A DNA stretch of 25,858 nucleotides from a virus. Within the stretch, counting starts at the first letter, position 1. Each line of letters opens with the position of its first letter. Positions 4,778 through 24,083 of this stretch are shown piece after piece. Where the stretch lies: the IMG/VR virus record IMGVR_UViG_3300044846_001567, positions 1 through 25,858 of that record. One strand, written 5' to 3'. The notes under the pieces were generated by a model, which did no database searches, was not told the origin of the DNA, and saw nothing but the letters and a program-made list of their open reading frames with translations. Position numbers and translations under genes: made by a program.

Positions 4778-4964
4778 CGAAGTCACGCACCCTCTCAGCG
4801 ACATACTCCAACGAAGGTGTCTTAGACGGATGTTGCGCCAACGACTGAATAAAGTCGGCAACCTTCACAACAGTTTCCATCTTGCCCATCTCATAGGCAG
4901 TGTTAGCTGCTTCACGCACAGCCAAAGAAACCTGCTCATAAGTGAACTTTGCATCGGCGCTCAT
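4770..4964 (-). CDS. 64-aa hypothetical protein
   Basis: The start at 4964 (MSADAKFTYEQVS) overlaps the stop of the 56-aa membrane protein gene (ATGA). The sequence is predicted helical with no TM segment or motif. The central AANTAYEMGKMETVVKVADFI resembles the corresponding region of the next gene (NRIVYELGLYYTKLVKH), hinting at a duplicated small helical domain. Function is unknown. Confidence 0.6.
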   Translation of the reverse strand: MSADAKFTYEQVSLAVREAANTAYEMGKMETVVKVADFIQSLAQHPSKTPSLEYVAERVRDFDA

Positions 4965-5131
4965 TTGCGACCTCGCTTCACACCTGGTCGTGTGAAGTAG
5001 TCGTAGAACATCCCACCAGCAAACACAAGTGAGCAGATCCCAACCATCCAAAGTTCTAACCCGAACTCATAGACATAATGCAGGCCGAAGCCCAAAGCTG
5101 CACCAGCAGCCAATACCAATAGAATTTTCAT
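4961..5131 (-). CDS. 56-aa membrane protein with two TM segments
   Basis: This frame begins MKILLVLAAGAALGFGLHYV and ends with a basic tail VKRGRK. Two hydrophobic stretches (residues about 2-20 and 28-42) are likely membrane helices; the basic tail would be cytoplasmic. The ATG has a good AAAGGG ribosome binding site with 6-base spacing, and its TGA overlaps the start of the next gene. It is the first gene after an intergenic gap with promoter-like elements, so it probably opens the accessory operon. Function is unknown. Confidence 0.65.
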   Translation of the reverse strand: MKILLVLAAGAALGFGLHYVYEFGLELWMVGICSLVFAGGMFYDYFTRPGVKRGRK

Positions 5132-5240
5132 TTGTTACCCTTTCGTCAGTTTGTTGGCCTGACAGGTCAAATCTAGGGATGACCACCGACAAAATCAAGC
5201 AACGAAACGCCCTAATTTTGTGCCGTTATCTAACCGTTAC
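5132..5240 (-). promoter_or_regulatory. Intergenic control region with CCGTTA direct repeat
   Basis: The 105-base gap between the RusA gene and the 56-aa gene carries, on the plus strand, CCGTTATC at 5223-5230 and CCGTTACA starting at 5234, spaced 11 bp, overlapping the RusA stop codon. The same tandem repeat occurs at 19026-19044. On the minus strand a candidate promoter TTGATT, 17-base spacer, TAGATT can be read downstream of the repeats. The order repeats, then promoter, then gene supports control of the accessory operon, but the promoter call is by eye. Confidence 0.45.
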
Positions 5241-5677
5241 AATCGCCACAATTCGATGGTTGCGCCAGGCTCAGGCCTTGTTTTCTCGCCACACCAGACC
5301 TTTTCAGCCAGAATCTTGACTATCAGCGCATCATCAGCGATCAGGCCGCCAATGGTCAGCGCATCGCCAACAGCCCGAATGTAGTGATCCAAGTCGGGTT
5401 TGCCGCCTGGATAAACCTTGTGCTTCGGCTGCTTAGGCCGTTCGATGTAGAAGGTCACTTTAAGTTTGACCGGTTCAACAAACTTGGTCACATCCTGCGT
5501 GTCATTGAACATCTGCCGAACCGCCAGGATGATGTCGTTGCGCCAAGCTGGTAAATGTTTGCTGGCCTCAACCATGACGGCGCGTTTGCCAATCACAAAA
5601 GCGTTCTTCGACCCCTGTGGTGCAGGTCTGCCATCAACAAACAACAAAGCGTGTTCGCGACCTACTTCCGCAACCAC
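5237..5677 (-). CDS. rusA: RusA-family Holliday junction resolvase
   Basis: The protein shows the RusA signature: an N-terminal beta strand with FVDGRPAPQGSK, a central PVKLKVTFYIERPK strand, then KPDLDHYIRAVGDAL followed by GLIADDALIV, which contain the conserved acidic residues (PDLD and ADD) that bind magnesium and cut four-way junctions. RusA enzymes resolve branched DNA during phage replication and before packaging. The gene lies directly after the SSB and a small membrane gene in the replication operon. The start is uncertain: a GTG at 5725 overlaps the upstream gene by 64 bases, GTG at 5677 by 16, and a TTG at 5647 lies just before the conserved strand with a GTAGG site further upstream. 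Confidence 0.85.
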   Translation of the reverse strand: MVAEVGREHALLFVDGRPAPQGSKNAFVIGKRAVMVEASKHLPAWRNDIILAVRQMFNDTQDVTKFVEPVKLKVTFYIERPKQPKHKVYPGGKPDLDHYIRAVGDALTIGGLIADDALIVKILAEKVWCGEKTRPEPGATIELWRL

Positions 5678-11178: not shown

Positions 11179-11466
11179 ATGGCCACCCACCGACAAACAG
11201 CAGATAACGCCTACAAACGGCTTATGGAACTGCAACGCGACAACGGTGGATCGCCATGCGAAGAACTACCACAAGTGTTCTACCCCGAAGAATTTGAAGA
11301 CCCAGAAATGTATGACATGGCCGAAAAGGTCGCAAAGAACCTGTGCGCAGAATGTCCGCTACTGAAACCCTGTCGCGATTGGGGATTGTTAGCAGCTGTG
11401 CCATACGGCATCATTGGTGGTTTGACCGTTCACGAACGACTGGCCACACCCGAAACTATTTCTTAG
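11179..11466 (+). CDS. whiB: WhiB-family iron-sulfur regulator
   Basis: This 95-aa plus-strand protein has the four WhiB cysteines: C27, then C56-x2-C59-x5-C65 (CAECPLLKPC), ligands for a 4Fe-4S cluster that senses redox state or NO and contacts the primary sigma factor. The family turn G-(I/V)-W-G-G appears here as GIIGG (77-81), without the Trp. The C-terminal basic tail or AT-hook used for DNA contact in host members is absent. Phage WhiB proteins, such as that of mycobacteriophage TM4, interfere with host WhiB function and cell division. This gene diverges from the early operon and converges with the holin-like gene, overlapping it by 11 bases tail to tail. An AGGG site lies 8 bases before the ATG. 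Confidence 0.9.
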   Translation: MATHRQTADNAYKRLMELQRDNGGSPCEELPQVFYPEEFEDPEMYDMAEKVAKNLCAECPLLKPCRDWGLLAAVPYGIIGGLTVHERLATPETIS

Positions 11467-14885: not shown

Positions 14886-16115
14886 TTAGAACGCTAATGT
14901 TCCTGTGTCTAGGATACCAAACGCCACATCATCCAACTGGAATAGTGTTGCGTTCAGCGTTCCCAAACCAAGAACCACCTTGTGATCAACCAACGAAGCC
15001 GTGTGGCCGATGGAAATAACTCTCGCAAACTTGGTGATGGCCGGTGCAATGCCATTAGGTGTGAACTGCACCTGCACAACCGAACCCAAATCCAAAGCCA
15101 AAATCTTATTCTGGTCAACCAACGACAGCTGCGACAAAATGATTTCAACCTGGTCAAAACGATACTCAGGCTGCGCATACAGGCTCACATAGTATGTGGC
15201 CAACTCAACCAAGGCATCATCGGTGTTCTGCAACAAACCATCCAGGGTCAGTGTGCGCACACCATAGTCAGACTGAGCCGATGTGTCGTTGGCCTGCACA
15301 ATAGTCGAAGACCCTTTGCGGCTCACCTCAGACTGCGTAAACAACAACTCCGAACCATAAACCACACGCACCTGCGAATAAGTAATCCCCGAAGCGTTAT
15401 CAGTCAACAAAGGCACAGCAGCCGAAGGGAACACCTTGTTGCGATCCTGAAACACCAAACGGCCATCTTTACCAATAAACAACTCGCCAGGCTCAGAAGA
15501 CTCAATCAGCTGCAAATACTGCAAAGCGTTATCAGCCGGCGTAACCGCATCACCCTGCAAAGTCGCAGTGCCAGTGTCAATGCTTCTAGCACCAGCAGGC
15601 CACGCCACACCAGCCGAATCCAACACACGATTCACACGCGCACCCGACAACTCAACAGGGTTCGTGCCAGTCGTTAGAGTCTGACCAGCTAAGAACGCGA
15701 AACCGTCAGCAGCTGAAACAGTCGCAGTCGAATCACCATTCGGCGCATAATCCAAGTTCCAGTCCTCAGTCGTTCCCAAGAACACCAACTCGTTGTTAGC
15801 AGTTATGCGCACATCGCGGCGAGGCACAATCTGACCATAAAACGGCGAAGCCACATAAGTCGGGTCAAAGAACCTGTTTCGGTTATTGAACTGAACATTC
15901 ACAACACCCGACTGGTAACGGTCAAGCGCACGGCTCTTGCCACGGTTCACACTTATCTGTGTCACATACGCGCTCACATCGTAGAAGAACGACCCACCAC
16001 CCAAAACATAGGCAGGGTTGTCTAAAACACCCTGAACAGGGTCATCAAGGATAAAGAAGTTGCCTGGCCCATTCTCATCGAAACCAAGTTCAACCTTTTC
16101 AGTTACCGCAGGCAT
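14886..16115 (-). CDS. Minor tail protein, tail-tip type
   Basis: This 409-aa protein starts MPAVTEKVELGFDENGPG and contains VTQISVNRGKSRALDRYQSG, NNRNRFFDPTY, a series found in actinophage minor tail proteins encoded after the tape measure gene. The middle part (GELFIGKDGRLVFQDR) resembles the receptor-side domain of tail hub proteins, where the local coordinate frame of a fibre is set. Position after the tape measure matches a distal tail or baseplate hub protein. Its start overlaps the tape measure stop (TGATG). Confidence 0.75.
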   Translation of the reverse strand: MPAVTEKVELGFDENGPGNFFILDDPVQGVLDNPAYVLGGGSFFYDVSAYVTQISVNRGKSRALDRYQSGVVNVQFNNRNRFFDPTYVASPFYGQIVPRRDVRITANNELVFLGTTEDWNLDYAPNGDSTATVSAADGFAFLAGQTLTTGTNPVELSGARVNRVLDSAGVAWPAGARSIDTGTATLQGDAVTPADNALQYLQLIESSEPGELFIGKDGRLVFQDRNKVFPSAAVPLLTDNASGITYSQVRVVYGSELLFTQSEVSRKGSSTIVQANDTSAQSDYGVRTLTLDGLLQNTDDALVELATYYVSLYAQPEYRFDQVEIILSQLSLVDQNKILALDLGSVVQVQFTPNGIAPAITKFARVISIGHTASLVDHKVVLGLGTLNATLFQLDDVAFGILDTGTLAF

Positions 16116-18373
16116 CAGGCAGCGACCCAGACCGAACCGTTGGCGCGTTCATACTTCTTTACCGAATCAATGACCGTGCGAGCTAGACCGTTCGGATCGG
16201 TGACAACACCGGCAGACACATTCACATTGAAGATAGTTGCGCGACCCGAAGAAGCGGCGTTGAACGCTGTGCCACGGCCACCCACACCGCCACCAGACAA
16301 GTTCACAGCAGCCACCTGGTCAATCATCGAACTGCCCTGCGGCAACACCGCATCCACAGCCAACTGCAACTGAGTTGTGAAGGTGCTGGCAAACGCATCA
16401 GCCAAGGTCTGTGCAGCCTTCTGCAAATCAGACTCCTGCGACAACAGACCTTCGATAAAACCGTTGCTCACAACCTGCTGACCAACCTCATAAAGCGTGT
16501 CAGTGGCATTAGCCGCAATGTCACCAGCCGACAAAGCAAGTTCGTTGTAAAGACCATTCAACGCGCTGATAGTGTCCGAACCACCAGCCACAATCGCCTC
16601 AGCCGTAGCCCCACCAGCATCAGCACCAGCCTGAACCAGCTGCGCAAACAACTGCTTATTCAAACCCAACTTCTTCAAAGCAACCAGGTTCTTAGCAAAC
16701 GCCTTAGTCTTATCAACCAACTTCTGGAAATTATCCACAAGGCCACCCGACTCAACCACATCAAAAGTCTTAGTCACCGCAACATCAATGCCGCCAACAA
16801 TCGAACGCACAGTTTCAGTCACACTACGGCTAGAAGTTTCCAGCAGGTTAGTGATGCTCAACAAACCAGTAACGCCAGCCGTTATGGTTCTAGCCACATC
16901 AACCTTGCCAGCCAACACATCACGCTGCTTCGCAATCGCCTGCAAAGTCTTACGCTCACTAGCCGCATACTCACGCAACTGAGAAGCTGCGCTAGACAAA
17001 ATCAGGCCATCAGACAACGCCGAATCAATCGTGTCAAAAATGTTGCTAAACGCATCAACAGCAGACTGCTCAAACGCACCCAGTTCCGGTGTGACCTTGA
17101 ACAGATCACGGAAACCATCAACCATCAAACGAGTCGCAGACATAAAGTCAGCAGCAGCCTCAGCCGCCTTCATGTAAGCCTCAGCCTGCTCATTAGCAGC
17201 ATCAATCGACTTCTGAATAGCATCCGCAGCAGCCTTAGCCGCCGCACTCAAACCAGTGTTCGACTTCTTTAAATCATCCGTGCCTTTACGCACAGTAACC
17301 AGCGCAGTTCCCAAACCGCCACGAATACCAGTCGAACCAAAGTAGCTGTCAAGAACCGAACCACCCTGGCCAGTCGCAGGCTTATTCTTCTTGACAAAAG
17401 CCTCAATCAGCGCAACCTCAGTCGCAGCACGATCACCACCAACACGCCTAAGCAACGCAATCTGTTCGTCATACGCTTTGCGATTCGTCTTGTAAAGGTC
17501 AAGATACTTCTGCATTCCTGCATTAGCATCCTGCTGACCCAACTTGCCAAAATCAAGTTTCGACAACGCAGCAGCGCGTTCAACAAAAGTGGCCAAATCC
17601 TGCAACACACCAGACAACTGCAACGCATCAGCCAAATCAATGACCGAGGTTGCAATGTCAGCAACATCGCTGGCAAACTGTTTCAGCTGCTCTTGACCCT
17701 CTGGCGAGTTGAAGAAATCAGCCAACTCATTTAGATAAGGAAGAAGCGCCATACCAATCTGCTCTTGCAGGTTGCCGAACACAATTTCTAAACGCTGATA
17801 AGGGTCTAGTTTCGCGGCGGCCTCAGCAGCACCATCGAACTGTTTGGCCAAAACACCGAGAGGGTCATTGACACCCTTGACATTTACACCCATCCTGGCA
17901 AGTGCAGTGGTGTTGCCGTTATAGGCGCGACCCAACGCAATCGCAACAGCACCAACATCACGGCCTGTGCCAGCAGCAACATCCAAAGCCAAACTGGTCA
18001 ACTGTGTCGCAGCAGACACATCACCGGTGGCACGAGTCAACTGCGCAAACGCAGGTCTAATGTCATCATCGGCAACAGCAGCCAGGCGTTCCATGCCACT
18101 GATAGAAGTTTCAACAGCTGCGATCTGCTCATTGGTCGCACCAACGGTGTTCCTGAGCGTGTTCGCCAACAACGCCTGCGACTTAGCATCAGCAGCAGCA
18201 GCCTTACCAGCAGCGTTCAACTGTGCAGTGATAGCCCCAAGCCCAAGACCCAAACCGACAGCACCAAGCGCACCTTTTAGCGACTTACCAAGTTTGCCGA
18301 ACTCAGACTGTGCCTTCTTGATGCCCGAATTATCAAGAACCGTTTTTAGCGGAATAAAAATAGAACCAGCCAT
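16115..18373 (-). CDS. Tape measure protein
   Basis: At 752 aa this is the largest protein in the window. It begins MAGSIFIPLKTVLDNSGI, has a Gly-rich hydrophobic stretch near residues 30-55 (LGAVGLGLGLGAITAQL), a conserved early helical domain (AALLANTL-type sequence, ARMGVNVKGVND) and long Ala/Lys/Gln-rich helices through the remainder. The tape measure runs through the tail tube, sets its length and is ejected with the DNA. The length implies a tail of roughly 110 nm if the usual 0.15 nm per residue applies; that is an estimate from family knowledge. The gene stands in the expected place between chaperone and minor tail genes. Confidence 0.9.
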   Translation of the reverse strand: MAGSIFIPLKTVLDNSGIKKAQSEFGKLGKSLKGALGAVGLGLGLGAITAQLNAAGKAAAADAKSQALLANTLRNTVGATNEQIAAVETSISGMERLAAVADDDIRPAFAQLTRATGDVSAATQLTSLALDVAAGTGRDVGAVAIALGRAYNGNTTALARMGVNVKGVNDPLGVLAKQFDGAAEAAAKLDPYQRLEIVFGNLQEQIGMALLPYLNELADFFNSPEGQEQLKQFASDVADIATSVIDLADALQLSGVLQDLATFVERAAALSKLDFGKLGQQDANAGMQKYLDLYKTNRKAYDEQIALLRRVGGDRAATEVALIEAFVKKNKPATGQGGSVLDSYFGSTGIRGGLGTALVTVRKGTDDLKKSNTGLSAAAKAAADAIQKSIDAANEQAEAYMKAAEAAADFMSATRLMVDGFRDLFKVTPELGAFEQSAVDAFSNIFDTIDSALSDGLILSSAASQLREYAASERKTLQAIAKQRDVLAGKVDVARTITAGVTGLLSITNLLETSSRSVTETVRSIVGGIDVAVTKTFDVVESGGLVDNFQKLVDKTKAFAKNLVALKKLGLNKQLFAQLVQAGADAGGATAEAIVAGGSDTISALNGLYNELALSAGDIAANATDTLYEVGQQVVSNGFIEGLLSQESDLQKAAQTLADAFASTFTTQLQLAVDAVLPQGSSMIDQVAAVNLSGGGVGGRGTAFNAASSGRATIFNVNVSAGVVTDPNGLARTVIDSVKKYERANGSVWVAA

Positions 18374-18374
18374 G

Positions 18375-19007
18375 TCACAGACCCTTCATGTTGAAATACC
18401 TAAAAGCGTTAGCCAAAACAACTTCGACCTCACGGCGAACCGCAGGCAAACTCTTTTCAGCACTAGGCCAAATGCGGCGAGAAGGCGCAGCACCATTCTT
18501 CCTGTTCAAACTAGCAATGAAGGCATCACCCTTCTTCTTGCTGGCATTACGCGGCTTAGTGCTGGCAGGCGCATTATCGTTCCTGCGACCCTCACCAATA
18601 AAGCGACCCGAACGGCCAGCCATGTCAACCAAAACCGTGCCAGGTGAAGACACCTTGATTCGCAAAAGCGGCGTAGTCAAAGACTTACCACCAGCCGAAG
18701 TTCTGAACTGGATTAGGGTCTTATCCGGCTTTACGCCAACACCCCAACCCAAACGACCCTTATCCTTCAACATCCCAGACAACGGCTTGATTGTGCCAAT
18801 GCCAGTCTTGATCTGCGACTCTAACGGTTTACCAATCTTCTTGATGTCACGCACAAACTGTGTTCGCAGGCGCGGCTCAATAGCCCTCATGCGCTTTTGC
18901 AGCTCACGGATGTCCGTAACCGAGATGTCTTGACCCACACCTGCACCGCCGCGTTCAGCCAACGCGCCGCTGAATTTAGCGATTTGGAGTGTTAGTGGTT
19001 CGGCCAT
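18375..19007 (-). CDS. HK97 gp10-like tail-joining protein, tentative
   Basis: The 210-aa protein is basic and helical at its start: VTDIRELQKRMRAIEPRLRTQFVRDIKKIGKPLESQIK, in part, which resembles HK97 gp10-type head-tail joining or tail completion proteins. A Gly/Ser-rich middle and an unusually basic Arg/Lys-rich stretch (RRNDNAPASTKPRNASKKK, in part) follow. The unusual point is position: it lies between the plus-strand insertion and the tape measure rather than before the tail tube. There is no ribosome binding site; a TAGAAT -10 box sits 7 bases before the ATG, suggesting a leaderless transcript. The family assignment is moderate. Confidence 0.5.
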   Translation of the reverse strand: MAEPLTLQIAKFSGALAERGGAGVGQDISVTDIRELQKRMRAIEPRLRTQFVRDIKKIGKPLESQIKTGIGTIKPLSGMLKDKGRLGWGVGVKPDKTLIQFRTSAGGKSLTTPLLRIKVSSPGTVLVDMAGRSGRFIGEGRRNDNAPASTKPRNASKKKGDAFIASLNRKNGAAPSRRIWPSAEKSLPAVRREVEVVLANAFRYFNMKGL

Positions 19008-19014
19008 AGGGTCA

Positions 19015-19044
19015 ATTCTACCGCCCCGTTATCAAACCGTTATC
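19015..19044 (-). promoter_or_regulatory. Leftward promoter with tandem GATAACGG sites
   Basis: On the minus strand two copies of GATAACGG (19037-19044 and 19026-19033, 11 bp apart) are followed by five bases and then TAGAAT (19015-19020), with the ATG of the next gene 7 bases further on. No normal -35 box is present in the right place, so the repeats may be activator sites taking its role. The same tandem repeat occurs near 5223-5241. Confidence 0.6.
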
Positions 19045-19064: not shown

Positions 19065-19092
19065 TTGCCAACAGCCAAGCAAACCCTTATCT
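19065..19092 (+). promoter_or_regulatory. Rightward promoter of two-gene insertion
   Basis: TTGCCA at 19065-19070 and TTATCT at 19087-19092 are separated by 16 bases, giving a transcription start around 19099 and a 5' leader of about 32 bases before the ATG at 19131. The assignment is by inspection. It would give the plus-strand gene pair its own transcription inside the late region. Confidence 0.45.
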
Positions 19093-19130
19093 TTGAACCG
19101 CTGGCCAACAAACAGCACAAAGGGTAAATC

Positions 19131-19271
19131 ATGAACGCATATCAAATTGGCAAACTAGCCAACAAACTAAACACATCAGCACCAGACTTCGACAGCTACT
19201 TTGAACTGATCGCACGAATCAGCAAATGGTCAAGCGCGCGCCTAATGGCAGAAATCAAGAAGGCGGCGTAG
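19131..19271 (+). CDS. 46-aa hypothetical protein of moron
   Basis: The protein begins MNAYQIGKLANKLNTSAPDF and ends MAEIKKAA. It is helical and basic at the C terminus, with SYFELIARISKW in the middle. An AAAGGG ribosome binding site sits 6 bases before its ATG. It lies two bases ahead of the 183-aa gene, in an orientation opposite to all surrounding structural genes. No family is recognised. A short helical partner of the larger protein, such as an antitoxin-like or regulatory partner, is one option without direct evidence. Confidence 0.6.
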   Translation: MNAYQIGKLANKLNTSAPDFDSYFELIARISKWSSARLMAEIKKAA

Positions 19272-19273
19272 TC

Positions 19274-19825
19274 ATGGGAATCTACAAGCACATCGAAACC
19301 GTGCTAGGTCAACCACACATTTACAACTACGACCTGGAAGAAGGATTCATTCTTTACAATCCGGTCAAGCCTTTTGAAGACAAGCACGGCACAGTGGTTG
19401 CGCAGCTCATGCAACTGGAAACCCAAGAAGGTCAAGTAGAAATCACCAACTACTACTCACGCGCCTGGTGCTACTGGAACTTCATCGATTCCACACACTT
19501 CGAACTCAAAGAAGCCGATGAACTTGTGGCACTAGAAGCACAGATGATGCCAGAAGGAATGATTGACGGCACAATAAGCGATGCTGAACGAGTATTGCTT
19601 TGGTTGGATCACGGCTACATTCCAACCGAGTCAGAGTTCTGGCAACGCCTAGTCGTGTCGCTGGCATACAACGCCATTACAGACACGAACTTCTTTGAAG
19701 ATCTTGCCGATTACACCTGGCACTCAGCTGCCAGTATTCAGAAGATGTTAGACCTCGCCGCAGGTGCAGTGCTACAACACCCGAACTTCCAACTCACAGG
19801 CTTCCAGCACATTTCCCCCAAATAG
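19274..19825 (+). CDS. 183-aa hypothetical protein of moron
   Basis: The frame extends upstream, but ATG 19274 (MGIYKHIETVLGQ) is chosen because it directly follows the 46-aa gene and has an AAGG stretch ahead. The protein is acidic and aromatic-rich: HIYNYDLEEGFILYNP, YYSRAWCYWNFIDSTHF, then ERVLLWLDHGYIPTESEFW and DYTWHSAASIQKMLD. There is no TM segment, signal peptide or metal motif. Nothing matches a family I recognise. Orientation, own promoter and a bidirectional terminator suggest a moron, often a gene altering the host or excluding other phages. Confidence 0.7.
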   Translation: MGIYKHIETVLGQPHIYNYDLEEGFILYNPVKPFEDKHGTVVAQLMQLETQEGQVEITNYYSRAWCYWNFIDSTHFELKEADELVALEAQMMPEGMIDGTISDAERVLLWLDHGYIPTESEFWQRLVVSLAYNAITDTNFFEDLADYTWHSAASIQKMLDLAAGAVLQHPNFQLTGFQHISPK

Positions 19826-19835
19826 TCGCTGGAAT

Positions 19836-19875
19836 AAAGAAACCACCTGTCACAAAAGGCAGGTGGTTTTCTTTA
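19836..19875. terminator. Bidirectional terminator between moron and tail genes
   Basis: The inverted repeat AAACCACCTG (19840-19849) and CAGGTGGTTT (19860-19869) flanks a 10-base loop. T-rich tails occur on both sides: TTTTCTTT on the plus strand and TTTCTTTATT on the minus strand. It lies just after the plus-strand 183-aa gene and directly after the end of the frameshifted tail chaperone on the minus strand, so it can stop both transcripts. Confidence 0.85.
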
Positions 19876-20273
19876 TCTCTGTTGCGCCCGATGAATCAAA
19901 TACCGTTGCAAAGTAAACAACATCCGAGGCGATTCTTGCATTAGCAGGCTTGGTGCAATACCTGTTTCAACAGCAAGGCCGGCGATGAGCCAATGAGCAG
20001 ACTCATCGCCAAGCCCAACTATTTTGGGTCGGATTCACTCGCAGAAACCGCAGAAACCGTTTCAATAAAATCCTCAAAGCTCTTATCAGTCTGCTTAGTG
20101 CGACTCAACGAAGCCCAAGCCAAAAACACGATATGTGTCAGTTTCTCAGACTTAGCCAAAGTGGCCACAGACAAATTGAACTTCTCTTCAAATTTCAGCA
20201 TGTCAGGCATGATCACCGGAATCGGGTCAATGGTTCTGCCATCCAAAAATTCTGCGCGTAGATTGAGTTTCAT
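19873..20273 (-). CDS. Tail assembly chaperone, -1 frameshift product (gpGT-like)
   Basis: This long form shares its first 84 residues with the 84-aa chaperone. At the slippery site CCCAAAA (20022-20028) a -1 shift bypasses the TAG and continues for 49 codons, giving a 133-aa protein. The extension begins IVGLGDESAHWLIAGLAVE and continues with TGIAPSLLMQESPRMLFTLQ to a TAA. WLIAGLA and TGI-P-L are typical of the second part (T-like) of actinophage tail chaperones. Both forms bind the tape measure and aid tail tube polymerisation. The extension occupies what otherwise looks like empty DNA before the terminator. Confidence 0.85.
19981..20028 (-). promoter_or_regulatory. -1 programmed frameshift signal
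   Basis: In the zero frame the chaperone ends GAC-CCA-AAA-TAG, so the heptamer C-CCA-AAA fits the X-XXY-YYZ rule. Eleven bases later starts a perfect 9-bp hairpin, GGCGATGAG with CTCATCGCC and a 12-base loop (19981-20010), a suitable stimulating structure. The position matches the conserved frameshift of lambda-type G/T genes. Confidence 0.88.
20019..20273 (-). CDS. Tail assembly chaperone, short form (gpG-like)
   Basis: The 84-aa short form starts MKLNLRAEFLDGRTIDPIP, with helical EKFNLSVATLAKSEKLTHIV and SFEDFIETVSAVSASESDPK following, in part. Small proteins of this length between tail tube and tape measure genes are the G-like tail chaperones, usually made in large excess over the frameshifted form. 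The stop is the TAG immediately after the CCCAAAA slippery site. A plus-strand insertion now separates it from the tape measure gene. Confidence 0.8.
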   Translation of the reverse strand: MKLNLRAEFLDGRTIDPIPVIMPDMLKFEEKFNLSVATLAKSEKLTHIVFLAWASLSRTKQTDKSFEDFIETVSAVSASESDPK

Positions 20274-20302: not shown

Positions 20303-20710
20303 TTAGGCTGTTGCGCGAGTAACAGTGCCGCTTGTTGGCCAGGTGACCGAAAGGGTCGCTAGATCGCCAACGGTTGAAGCAAACGGCTGGTATTGCGAAA
20401 CGAGGCAAACAGCAGTGTATGAAGGGTTAGTTGATGACACGGTTGCGCTAGTTGGCGTAATGACAACAGTTGCAGCAGTGTTAAGCAACGGCCAGAGTGT
20501 CTGGTCAACGGCAGCACTGCCGAAGTCCTGGTAAAAGTTCAGGGTCACTGAACCTGATAGAAGGCCGCCAGTTACGGTCTTGAAGTTGCCACCAAAAGTG
20601 GTTGTGTCAACTTCGTCAGCCTGAATGGTTAGATCAACAGACTGAAGCGAGTTGCTCAGGTTTACTCCGTTGACCGTAATCTTGTGGTCTGTTGCGACAA
20701 ATTTTGCCAT
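20303..20710 (-). CDS. Major tail tube protein
   Basis: This 135-aa protein begins MAKFVATDHKITVNGVNLS and contains SVDLTIQADEVDTTTFGG, a strand-turn-strand typical of siphophage tail tube proteins (lambda gpV/HK97 gp6-like beta-barrel fold). SVTLNFYQDFG and the late VCLVSQYQPFA and TLSVTWPTSG segments also match. It polymerises into hexameric rings to form the tube. Context: tail terminator gene upstream, tail chaperone downstream. It has its own strong ribosome binding sequence. Confidence 0.85.
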   Translation of the reverse strand: MAKFVATDHKITVNGVNLSNSLQSVDLTIQADEVDTTTFGGNFKTVTGGLLSGSVTLNFYQDFGSAAVDQTLWPLLNTAATVVITPTSATVSSTNPSYTAVCLVSQYQPFASTVGDLATLSVTWPTSGTVTRATA

Positions 20711-21765: not shown

Positions 21766-22197
21766 TTAGCCGTTAGTCAGCCGTGCCTTTATAGCAGTCG
21801 TGCTGATGCCATCCGTGTAAGGCAGATATACCAAACCGATGCCGCGCTCATCCAACCAATCCTGGTCAAAACCCATCTGATAGTAGTAATCACGCCGCGC
21901 CCAATCGCTACCGATCACAACATAGTCAGGTCGCACCTGCTCAATGGTCGGCTTCGAATCTGCACCACCCATGTTCGGCACAACAGCTGCCACCCACTTA
22001 CAACCCAACAAGGTTGCTTCGCGTTCACGGTAAGTCATCACCGGTGCTTTGCCCTTGTATTCCACAATGAACTCATCGGTGTTCAACGACACCACCACAT
22101 CCCCGATCTCATGGCAGCGTTCCAAGAACGCGATATGCCCTGGATGTAGCAGGTCGAATGTGCCGCCAGTGTAAACGGTTGGTCGTTTCAATCCCAT
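21766..22197 (-). CDS. Cytidylyltransferase, TagD-like
   Basis: This 143-aa protein has the nucleotidyltransferase motif GTFDLLHPGHIAFL with the HPGH active-site box, then YREREATL, IGSDW and the family ending GISTTAIKARL, close to TagD-type glycerol-3-phosphate cytidylyltransferases. Such enzymes join CTP and a phosphorylated polyol or sugar to make an activated donor such as CDP-glycerol. The ATG at 22197 has a GAAGGG ribosome binding site 7 bases upstream; a GTG at 22227 is less likely. It lies downstream of two glycosyltransferases, so it may supply a donor for modifying the virion or the cell surface. The substrate is unknown. Confidence 0.88.
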   Translation of the reverse strand: MGLKRPTVYTGGTFDLLHPGHIAFLERCHEIGDVVVSLNTDEFIVEYKGKAPVMTYREREATLLGCKWVAAVVPNMGGADSKPTIEQVRPDYVVIGSDWARRDYYYQMGFDQDWLDERGIGLVYLPYTDGISTTAIKARLTNG

Positions 22198-22835
22198 CGA
22201 TTTGCCCTTCGTGTTTGTAGTGTCCACGCATTTGCGCTTATACGGCCTTGTGCGGCGTTCTCAGCCCACAAACTTTGATTACTGCTGTATGACACCGAGT
22301 TCACATTTTGGAAGCCGCTATGAAGCGTAGAACTGTTATCGTGACCCATTTTGCAGGCAATGGTTTTCTTGCTCACGGCAGCCAAATCAACGCGGCGTTC
22401 CAAATCGTTATCGTCAAAATATAGCGGGTAAAAATTCTCGTCATAAAGCCCAACCTTCTCAACCATGCCCTCACCAAACACCACACCCGACCACTGCGGC
22501 ACAATGTCCAAGAAGTTCAATGCCTGCGTGTCCACCTGATCGGGGATATTCGCCATCTGTCCAGGCTCAAACCAAGCATCATCATTTACCAGCACCCAAT
22601 ATGGCGCATACGGTGTGGCCTTCACAATCAGATTCCAAGCCCCAACCAAACCAAGCCCGAACGGAACTTCGATGTGCCACAAGTGTTTGACCAGCTCAGG
22701 CTTCTTCGGTTGCCAAGTGCGCGTTCCTGAATTGTTGACCACCACCAAATGCTCAACAGGATAATCAATGCTGGCAAGAAGCCGGTCAGCCAAATCAAAT
22801 CGTTTCAGAGTGCAAAACCCCAAAACAGGAATCAT
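22188..22835 (-). CDS. Glycosyltransferase, GT2 family
   Basis: The protein begins MIPVLGFCTLKRFDLADR and has the GT-A fold pattern: VEHLVVVNNSGT, GLGLVGAWNLI, WVLVNDDAWFEPG with a DD metal-binding motif and a late YLYDENFYPLYFDDNDLERR-type acceptor and catalytic segment (only parts quoted exactly: FDDNDLERRVDL). GT2 enzymes transfer a sugar from a nucleotide donor with inversion. The ATG at 22835 overlaps the TGA of the preceding glycosyltransferase gene (ATGA), so the two are coupled. The position between capsid and connector genes favours modification of virion proteins or of surface polymers. Confidence 0.88.
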   Translation of the reverse strand: MIPVLGFCTLKRFDLADRLLASIDYPVEHLVVVNNSGTRTWQPKKPELVKHLWHIEVPFGLGLVGAWNLIVKATPYAPYWVLVNDDAWFEPGQMANIPDQVDTQALNFLDIVPQWSGVVFGEGMVEKVGLYDENFYPLYFDDNDLERRVDLAAVSKKTIACKMGHDNSSTLHSGFQNVNSVSYSSNQSLWAENAAQGRISANAWTLQTRRANRWD

Positions 22836-24043
22836 CGCAAAATCTTCTTCAACACCGGCAACCAGTATTCGCGCCAAACCTTCTCAGCACCAAAACCCTC
22901 AGCAAAATCAATCGCCTTCTGCGACTTCCCACGCGGCCTATCATAAGCAGCCTGCAACGCCGCCACAGTCTGCGGAATGTTCGGCACACTAAACCAAGAC
23001 TTCTGCGCCTCATCCCACAGCGGCTGACACTCAATCAGCCAACCATCGCCACACAACTCAGTGCTGGCACAAATGTCCGACACAACAACCGGTGTGCCAC
23101 AAGCCTGCGCCTCAACCGTGCCAACACCAAAACCTTCCCCATAACTGATGCCCAGGTAAACATCCATAGCCGTATAAAACGCAGCCAAATGTTCCTGCGA
23201 ATAGCCGTAACGGTAAGACACCTGATCGCAGAACACAACCTGATTCCGTTGCAAACCACAGCTGGTCAACAACTGATCTAACTTCCAACCACCGAAACTG
23301 CCGAACATATCGGTGTGCAAATACAGCACAGCATCAGGCTTATCCTTCGCAAAGATTGAGAACGCCAAAAACGCCTCAGCAACAGCCTTCCTGTGAATCG
23401 CACCCGAAGCCTTATTCGCAAAGTTCATGCCCACAATAAAGTTGTCATCCGTCAAACCCATGTAATCGCGCACAGGCTGATTATCAACATAAAAGGTCGG
23501 TTTGAACACCGGCTCAACAGCGTGAGGCACAAACTCAGCCTCAACACCATACTTAGCCAACTGCGCCTGACCCCAACGACTCATCGCAATCGGTGTCACA
23601 TTAGGTCGTTTGCACCACTCCAACACCAACGGCGGAATCGGGTTGTGGTCAATCGGTGTCCATGAAGCAATGTTCAGGTCGGCATACTTATCGCCACGCA
23701 AAATCCACACATCGTAAAGAGTCACCAAAACATTTGGCAACTTGCCCTTCTTCTTCTCTACGGCGGCCACATGATGCAAGTGATTCAGCGGCGTAACATC
23801 CTGCGAATACGGTTCAGCACCACGCGCATACTCAGGCACAACACCGTGGTCACTAGCCCAAGTGCCATTCACACCTTCGCGGCCATAGTTGCTCAACACA
23901 GCAACATCCAAACCGTCACGGATCATACGATTCAACACCTGGTTCGACTGCATCCCATATCCCGTGGTGGCCGTTGGCGAATTACTAAACCACGAAACAA
24001 TGCCGCGCAAACTACCCTTAGCCGGATTCCCAGACTTACCCAT
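22832..24043 (-). CDS. Glycosyltransferase, GT4 family
   Basis: This is a GT-B type enzyme of about 403 aa. Early it has GIVSWFSNSPTATTGYGMQ, the Gly-rich N-terminal acceptor domain. Late it has the family signature GISYGEGFGVGTVEAQACGTP with the E-x7-E pair that binds the nucleotide-sugar, followed by VVVSDICASTELC. The ATG at 24043 is preferred over one at 24079 because AGGAT lies just upstream. GT4 enzymes are retaining transferases using UDP-, GDP- or ADP-sugars. It is first of the three-gene glycan cassette that separates the capsid gene from the head-tail genes. Confidence 0.9.
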   Translation of the reverse strand: MGKSGNPAKGSLRGIVSWFSNSPTATTGYGMQSNQVLNRMIRDGLDVAVLSNYGREGVNGTWASDHGVVPEYARGAEPYSQDVTPLNHLHHVAAVEKKKGKLPNVLVTLYDVWILRGDKYADLNIASWTPIDHNPIPPLVLEWCKRPNVTPIAMSRWGQAQLAKYGVEAEFVPHAVEPVFKPTFYVDNQPVRDYMGLTDDNFIVGMNFANKASGAIHRKAVAEAFLAFSIFAKDKPDAVLYLHTDMFGSFGGWKLDQLLTSCGLQRNQVVFCDQVSYRYGYSQEHLAAFYTAMDVYLGISYGEGFGVGTVEAQACGTPVVVSDICASTELCGDGWLIECQPLWDEAQKSWFSVPNIPQTVAALQAAYDRPRGKSQKAIDFAEGFGAEKVWREYWLPVLKKILR

Positions 24044-24083
24044 TTTTATCCTGTCGTAGAAGGTGCTAACAGAATACAACAGA

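Follow-up and report, generated by a model that had tools for sequence, protein, structure and literature searches.

What is a pair of genes doing on the plus strand in the middle of a block of tail genes that all read the other way? The question arises from a stretch of 25,858 nucleotides taken from an IMG/VR virus record (IMGVR_UViG_3300044846_001567; the whole stretch that was analysed is called the window here), in which two small reading frames, ORF1 and ORF2, separate the tail assembly chaperone (TAC) gene from a gp10-like tail gene. A first-pass annotation had described a 46-aa and a 183-aa gene at this place as a moron, possibly a paired system, with transcription signals of its own. 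The coordinates of both genes were confirmed, the gap between them is 2 nt, and all of their structural neighbours lie on the minus strand (Table 1). When the window is compared with its relatives (dS about 0.9-2.3), the dN/dS of ORF2 is 0.12-0.19 and that of ORF1 about 0.2, low values from which we conclude that both are real genes and which indicate that purifying selection acts on them.

Table 1. Features of the antisense slot and of its flanks, in window coordinates.
Feature	Position	Strand	Basis or remark
Tape measure protein (TMP) gene	16115-18373	-	
gp10-like tail gene, gpA type, 210 aa, slot flank	18375-19007	-	
Candidate extended -10 of the gp10-like gene, GGTAGAATTGA	19012-19022	-	7 nt before ATG
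Direct repeats CCGTTATC, 11 bp apart	19026-19033, 19037-19044		
Candidate rightward promoter, TTGCCA-17-TATCTT	19065-19093	+	
Third repeat copy CCCTTATC, over the rightward -10	19084-19091		
Ribosome binding site AAAGGG of the first slot gene	19119-19124	+	
ORF1 (optional first gene of the slot), 46 aa, basic	19131-19271	+	ORF and homologues
ORF2, 183 aa, acidic, N1 and C domain	19274-19825	+	ORF and homologues
Bidirectional terminator, common to ORF2 and TAC transcripts	19839-19870	both	fold
TAC N-terminal ORF, other slot flank	20019-20273	-	
TAC slippery heptamer CCCAAAA	20022-20028	-	-1 extension ends at 19873, read by eye
MTP gene	20303-20710	-	

The idea that the genes carry their own signals held firmly for the terminator and less so for the promoter. 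The bidirectional terminator folds strongly in either direction (z-scores -7.0 and -4.5, values that no shuffle equalled), and it is near-identical in relatives with other forms of ORF2 (classes II and III, described below); the unit formed by ORF1 and ORF2 thus ends in a terminator of its own, as expected of a moron. The rightward promoter is a candidate, its consensus having been found once where 2.5 occurrences were expected, which is not above chance, and hexamers resembling TTGCCA and TATCTT at the equivalent place in several relatives (judged by eye) speak for it. On the other strand, GGTAGAAT precedes the ATG of the gp10-like gene by 7 nt, and could possibly be the extended -10 of a leaderless transcript; the same spacing recurs at sites that hold no antisense gene. 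The slot thus has the TAC terminator at one end and the putative gp10-like -10 at the other, both being signals for leftward late transcription. The repeats CCGTTATC and CCCTTATC are possibly a shared operator that would couple the two divergent promoters; the first two copies are partly retained in two relatives (L059 and L062), and neither was detected in L012, where the site is empty. Elsewhere in the window, the GATAACGG direct repeat found beside the gp10-like promoter recurs with three mismatches at 5223-5241 on the minus strand, about 90 nt before an ORF at 4961-5131.

Scans of IMG/VR found relatives of ORF2 encoded by 48 contigs besides the window. The position is the same throughout, the relative adjoining TAC and lying antisense to it in 48 of 48 contigs, with a gp10-like gene on its other side in 45 of them. 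Each of eight carrying records searched has a single copy, and no copy turned up in six searched records whose site is empty. A tblastn search of 50,697 annotated phage records gave no significant relative, and a pattern scan of 84,980 bacterial and archaeal genomes gave no match. The empty state, in which the cassette is absent and the flanks adjoin, was seen in twelve contigs and in Pontimonas phage phiPsal1, the gp10-like gene there being of another type; the empty-site relatives include some whose TAC is 93-100% identical, several of them at 99-100%. The two genes are therefore not conserved tail parts of all related phages: ORF1 is patchy, the site of ORF2 can be empty, and the class of ORF2 is independent of the tail genes.

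The site can also be filled by a second antisense family, A5 (153-166 aa), found in a sister lineage in 22 contigs, all of them with a gpA-type gene at the flank. The A5 gene is preceded by a 71-aa ORF in L118, L121 and others, or alternatively followed by a BRCT mini-protein (Pfam PF00533, 1e-8 and 1.4e-10); stand-alone BRCT mini-proteins of 71-75 aa occur in the A5 antisense unit at L040:1076-1291 and L044:4162-4389, and in L134 and L135. We do not claim A5 as a distant homologue of ORF2 (E 0.003 and probability 10% against class II; E 0.41 against class I). In a tree of gp10-like proteins (64 rows), a supported branch (96/95) separates the 10 empty rows from all 54 rows that hold an antisense gene; these 54 form the gpA clade and divide into 36 with the ORF2 family and 18 with A5. 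Since the tree is rooted for drawing only, gain of the slot in one clade and loss elsewhere are indistinguishable on it. What stands of the moron described in the first-pass annotation is thus an independently terminated antisense unit at an operon boundary, of no recognised protein family, which relatives with TAC of 93-100% identity lack; it is not sporadic, as every gpA row carries one. The antisense gene is constant in one clade and its identity alone varies.

Proteins of the ORF2 family come in three architectures. The window's own type, class I, consists of a beta-rich N1 domain (about residues 1-75), with an invariant D36-x-H38-G39 and YS-x-x-W-x-YWNF-x-D, followed by a helical C domain (about 105-183). 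The proteins of class II run to 135-175 aa, and their N part is unrelated to that of class I; those of class III (256 aa) add an internal repeat (shuffle p 0.0005) to N1. A C domain of some 75 aa is common to all three, with the motifs WQ-x-LVV-x-x-AYNAIT and Q-x-M-x-D-x-A-x-G-x-V, and hhalign aligns class I with class II at an E of 1e-38. The C domain comes out as helical and the N domain as alpha-beta in two AlphaFold models of modest confidence (pLDDT 73 and 65). Among the minor variants, L109:5848-6336 and L112:5836-6336 are class II with a Cys/His-rich C-terminal extension, and L080:5983-6447 is a relative without the YYSRAWAYWNF segment.

Consistent with the earlier statement that neither protein resembles a recognised family, Pfam, PHROG, NCBIfam and PADLOC profiles (the last being models of defence rather than counter-defence) gave no usable match to ORF1 or ORF2, and a sequence search of the PDB gave no significant one. 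A fold search of both models against the PDB and BFVD returned nothing at E < 0.001 (best Foldseek E 0.038, best VIA Z 4.4), and its CorA, PTP1B and WGR rows were taken as noise. We also set aside phrog_22725, a family of unknown function whose match to residues 38-87 of the L056 protein (E 0.0026) is weak and uninformative. The acidity that had been noted for ORF2 is borne out by a pI of 4.5 and a net charge of -18, which make it the most acidic per residue among 42 window ORFs compared, yet -18 over 183 aa is not strong evidence for a DNA mimic. No TM-like segment is evident in ORF2, the maximal 19-residue KD hydropathy being 0.74.

Comparison of close relatives establishes that the locus is a fixed antisense slot, the coding content of which has been repeatedly exchanged between constant ends. 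Inside the gpA clade there have been at least 6-7 changes between class I (counted with class III) and class II. Within the classes, purifying selection is evident. Identical gp10-like proteins accompany class I in L001 and class II in L006, and L004 (class II) and L002 (class III) are 100% alike in TAC, 95% in the gp10-like protein, 98% in TMP and 99% in MTP. At the DNA level, homology of about 91-92% between the window and L006, L004 and L002 extends up to the end of the first ATG (19133) and restarts at 19736 against class II and at 19636 against class III. From these breakpoints we conclude that the candidate promoter, the ribosome binding site, the start codon, the last ~30 codons and the terminator have been kept while the middle has been exchanged. 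Elsewhere, the middle of the gene for the major tail protein, MTP (window about 20355-20590), is another exchanged segment, 60-80% identical between flanks that are mostly 91-100% identical, and homology to several close relatives breaks in a TMP segment at about 17247-17690.

The first gene of the slot is less constant than the second. ORF1 accompanies ORF2 in 7 of the 48 contigs (L001, L057, L059, L060, L063, L105 and L106, its homologues in the last six being 70-76% identical), and the remaining 41 carry ORF2 without it. Its place is taken by a 94-aa Cys-rich ORF in L056, L058, L061 and L065, with a cut form in L064, and in L062, L066 and L067 there is no first gene before ORF2. In L105 and L106, moreover, it stands beside a class II ORF2. 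Thus ORF1 is an optional companion and not an obligate partner, and the paired two-gene unit suggested at first is not supported. By eye the register of ORF1 resembles that of the ORF2 C domain; hhalign gives E 0.024 and a probability of 2%, and we make no claim of a copy.

Because the same tail genes carry different classes, the role of ORF2 would seem to be aimed at something variable outside the virion. The reading that we favour, to which we would give a probability of roughly 0.4, is that this is an independently expressed accessory slot for soluble host- or defence-directed proteins. The slot lies on the opposite strand at the border of two late units, after the TAC terminator and before the gp10-like promoter, and appears to be transcribed from a promoter of its own, which would be of host type and independent of the late genes. 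Recombination would swap the coding content between a promoter, ribosome binding site and start codon on one side and the C-terminal ~30 codons and terminator on the other. The product would be a soluble two-domain protein in which the N module is exchanged (hence three architectures) and the ~75-aa helical C domain stays constant, the former perhaps binding a host target, for example one of defence or takeover, and the latter perhaps giving a common activity or allowing oligomerisation, with ORF1 as an optional helper. A broader version, which we offer tentatively, is that of a diversification slot of aquatic actinophages, whose fixed ends accept plug-in N modules or whole genes and whose products may be counter-defence or exclusion proteins of new fold. 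The significance of the slot is that, in a phage group that is widespread and for the most part uncultured, it shows one gene being replaced at a definite position between constant ends. If its products act on host defences or on rival phages, the locus is a source of unknown effectors that would permit a comparison of N modules with hosts and a test of the C domain as a common platform.

Close behind the host-directed reading comes superinfection exclusion or phage-phage competition, in which ORF2 made in the infected cell would block related phages and the N module would set specificity; on our analysis this is possible but somewhat doubtful. The model is Tab of Pseudomonas phage JBD26, an 83-aa protein encoded between terminase genes, expressed from the prophage and paired with an anti-Tab on the late strand (PMC10884400). 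ORF2 is like Tab in being antisense in the late region, with its own promoter (a candidate in the case of ORF2), a fixed site and no known similarity; an antisense gene that is always there while its identity changes would fit exclusion through the same diversification, as would the lack of a match in the bacterial and archaeal genomes scanned. It is unlike Tab in its site between TAC and the gp10-like gene, in its length (135-256 aa), in that no signs of lysogeny were found in ten contigs and in that no late-strand partner was noted at the slot. Additionally, a system directed against tails must spare itself, whereas the class of ORF2 does not track the TMP, gp10-like or MTP alleles, and Tab-like targeting of the phage's own TMP was rejected for the same reason. 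Membrane exclusion proteins offer another comparison: HK97 gp15, encoded by a moron close to the tape measure gene of a temperate phage, is a membrane protein that acts in superinfection exclusion. ORF2 resembles gp15 and other tail-region morons as an extra gene among tail genes, but it is antisense and has no TM-like segment.

Another way to view the slot is as a part of the tail programme itself, ORF2 or the antisense transcript tuning the expression or assembly of the gp10-like protein and TMP. In the 64-row tree the antisense gene is found with every gpA-type tail gene and with no other type, which would agree with such a role, as would divergent promoters with common repeats. However, adjacency alone can explain the association, phages with gp10-like genes of the gpB, gpC or gpD types do without an antisense slot gene, and the classes swap although gp10-like, TAC, TMP and MTP are nearly identical. 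A tail-linked role is therefore unlikely, class and tail alleles being uncoupled. Still less likely is an operon of the Acr-Aca kind, in which the small gene (ORF1, the 94-aa Cys-rich ORF or the 71-aa ORF) would encode the effector and ORF2 an autoregulator. The acr-aca loci have a fixed site, their own promoter and changing small genes next to a conserved gene, which encodes an HTH repressor. The small and changing first gene, the constancy of ORF2 and the promoter repeats recall this arrangement, but the first gene is missing in many members, ORF2 has no HTH match in Pfam, PHROG or NCBIfam and no fold match with the modest-confidence models, and it is ORF2 itself that is modular and exchanged.

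A toxin-antitoxin pair (ORF1 and ORF2 in either order) or a lysogenic conversion gene, the latter named in the first-pass annotation, is very improbable: a small gene 2 nt before a larger one of opposite charge (the pI of ORF1 is 9.6) would suit the former, but ORF1 and ORF2 do not co-occur as a pair would, and ten contigs of 19-34 kb, possibly fragments, yielded neither a tyrosine integrase nor a resolvase. The closest annotated phage by capsid protein (MCP) is phiPsal1 (MG835450; 47%). Its authors call it clearly lytic (PMC6106888), which together with the integrase result makes lysogenic conversion unlikely. Its structural gene order is similar to that of the window, whereas its site is empty, TAC and the next tail gene being about 100 bp apart. 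The phages that bear the slot are aquatic, probably lytic siphoviruses related to phiPsal1. Another plus-strand gene of the mostly minus window is WhiB-like (11179-11466; PF02467, 6e-12). On the minus strand, cytidylyltransferase-like and glycosyltransferase genes lie between the neck and capsid genes (21766-24079), and phiPsal1 has glycosyltransferases at the matching place.
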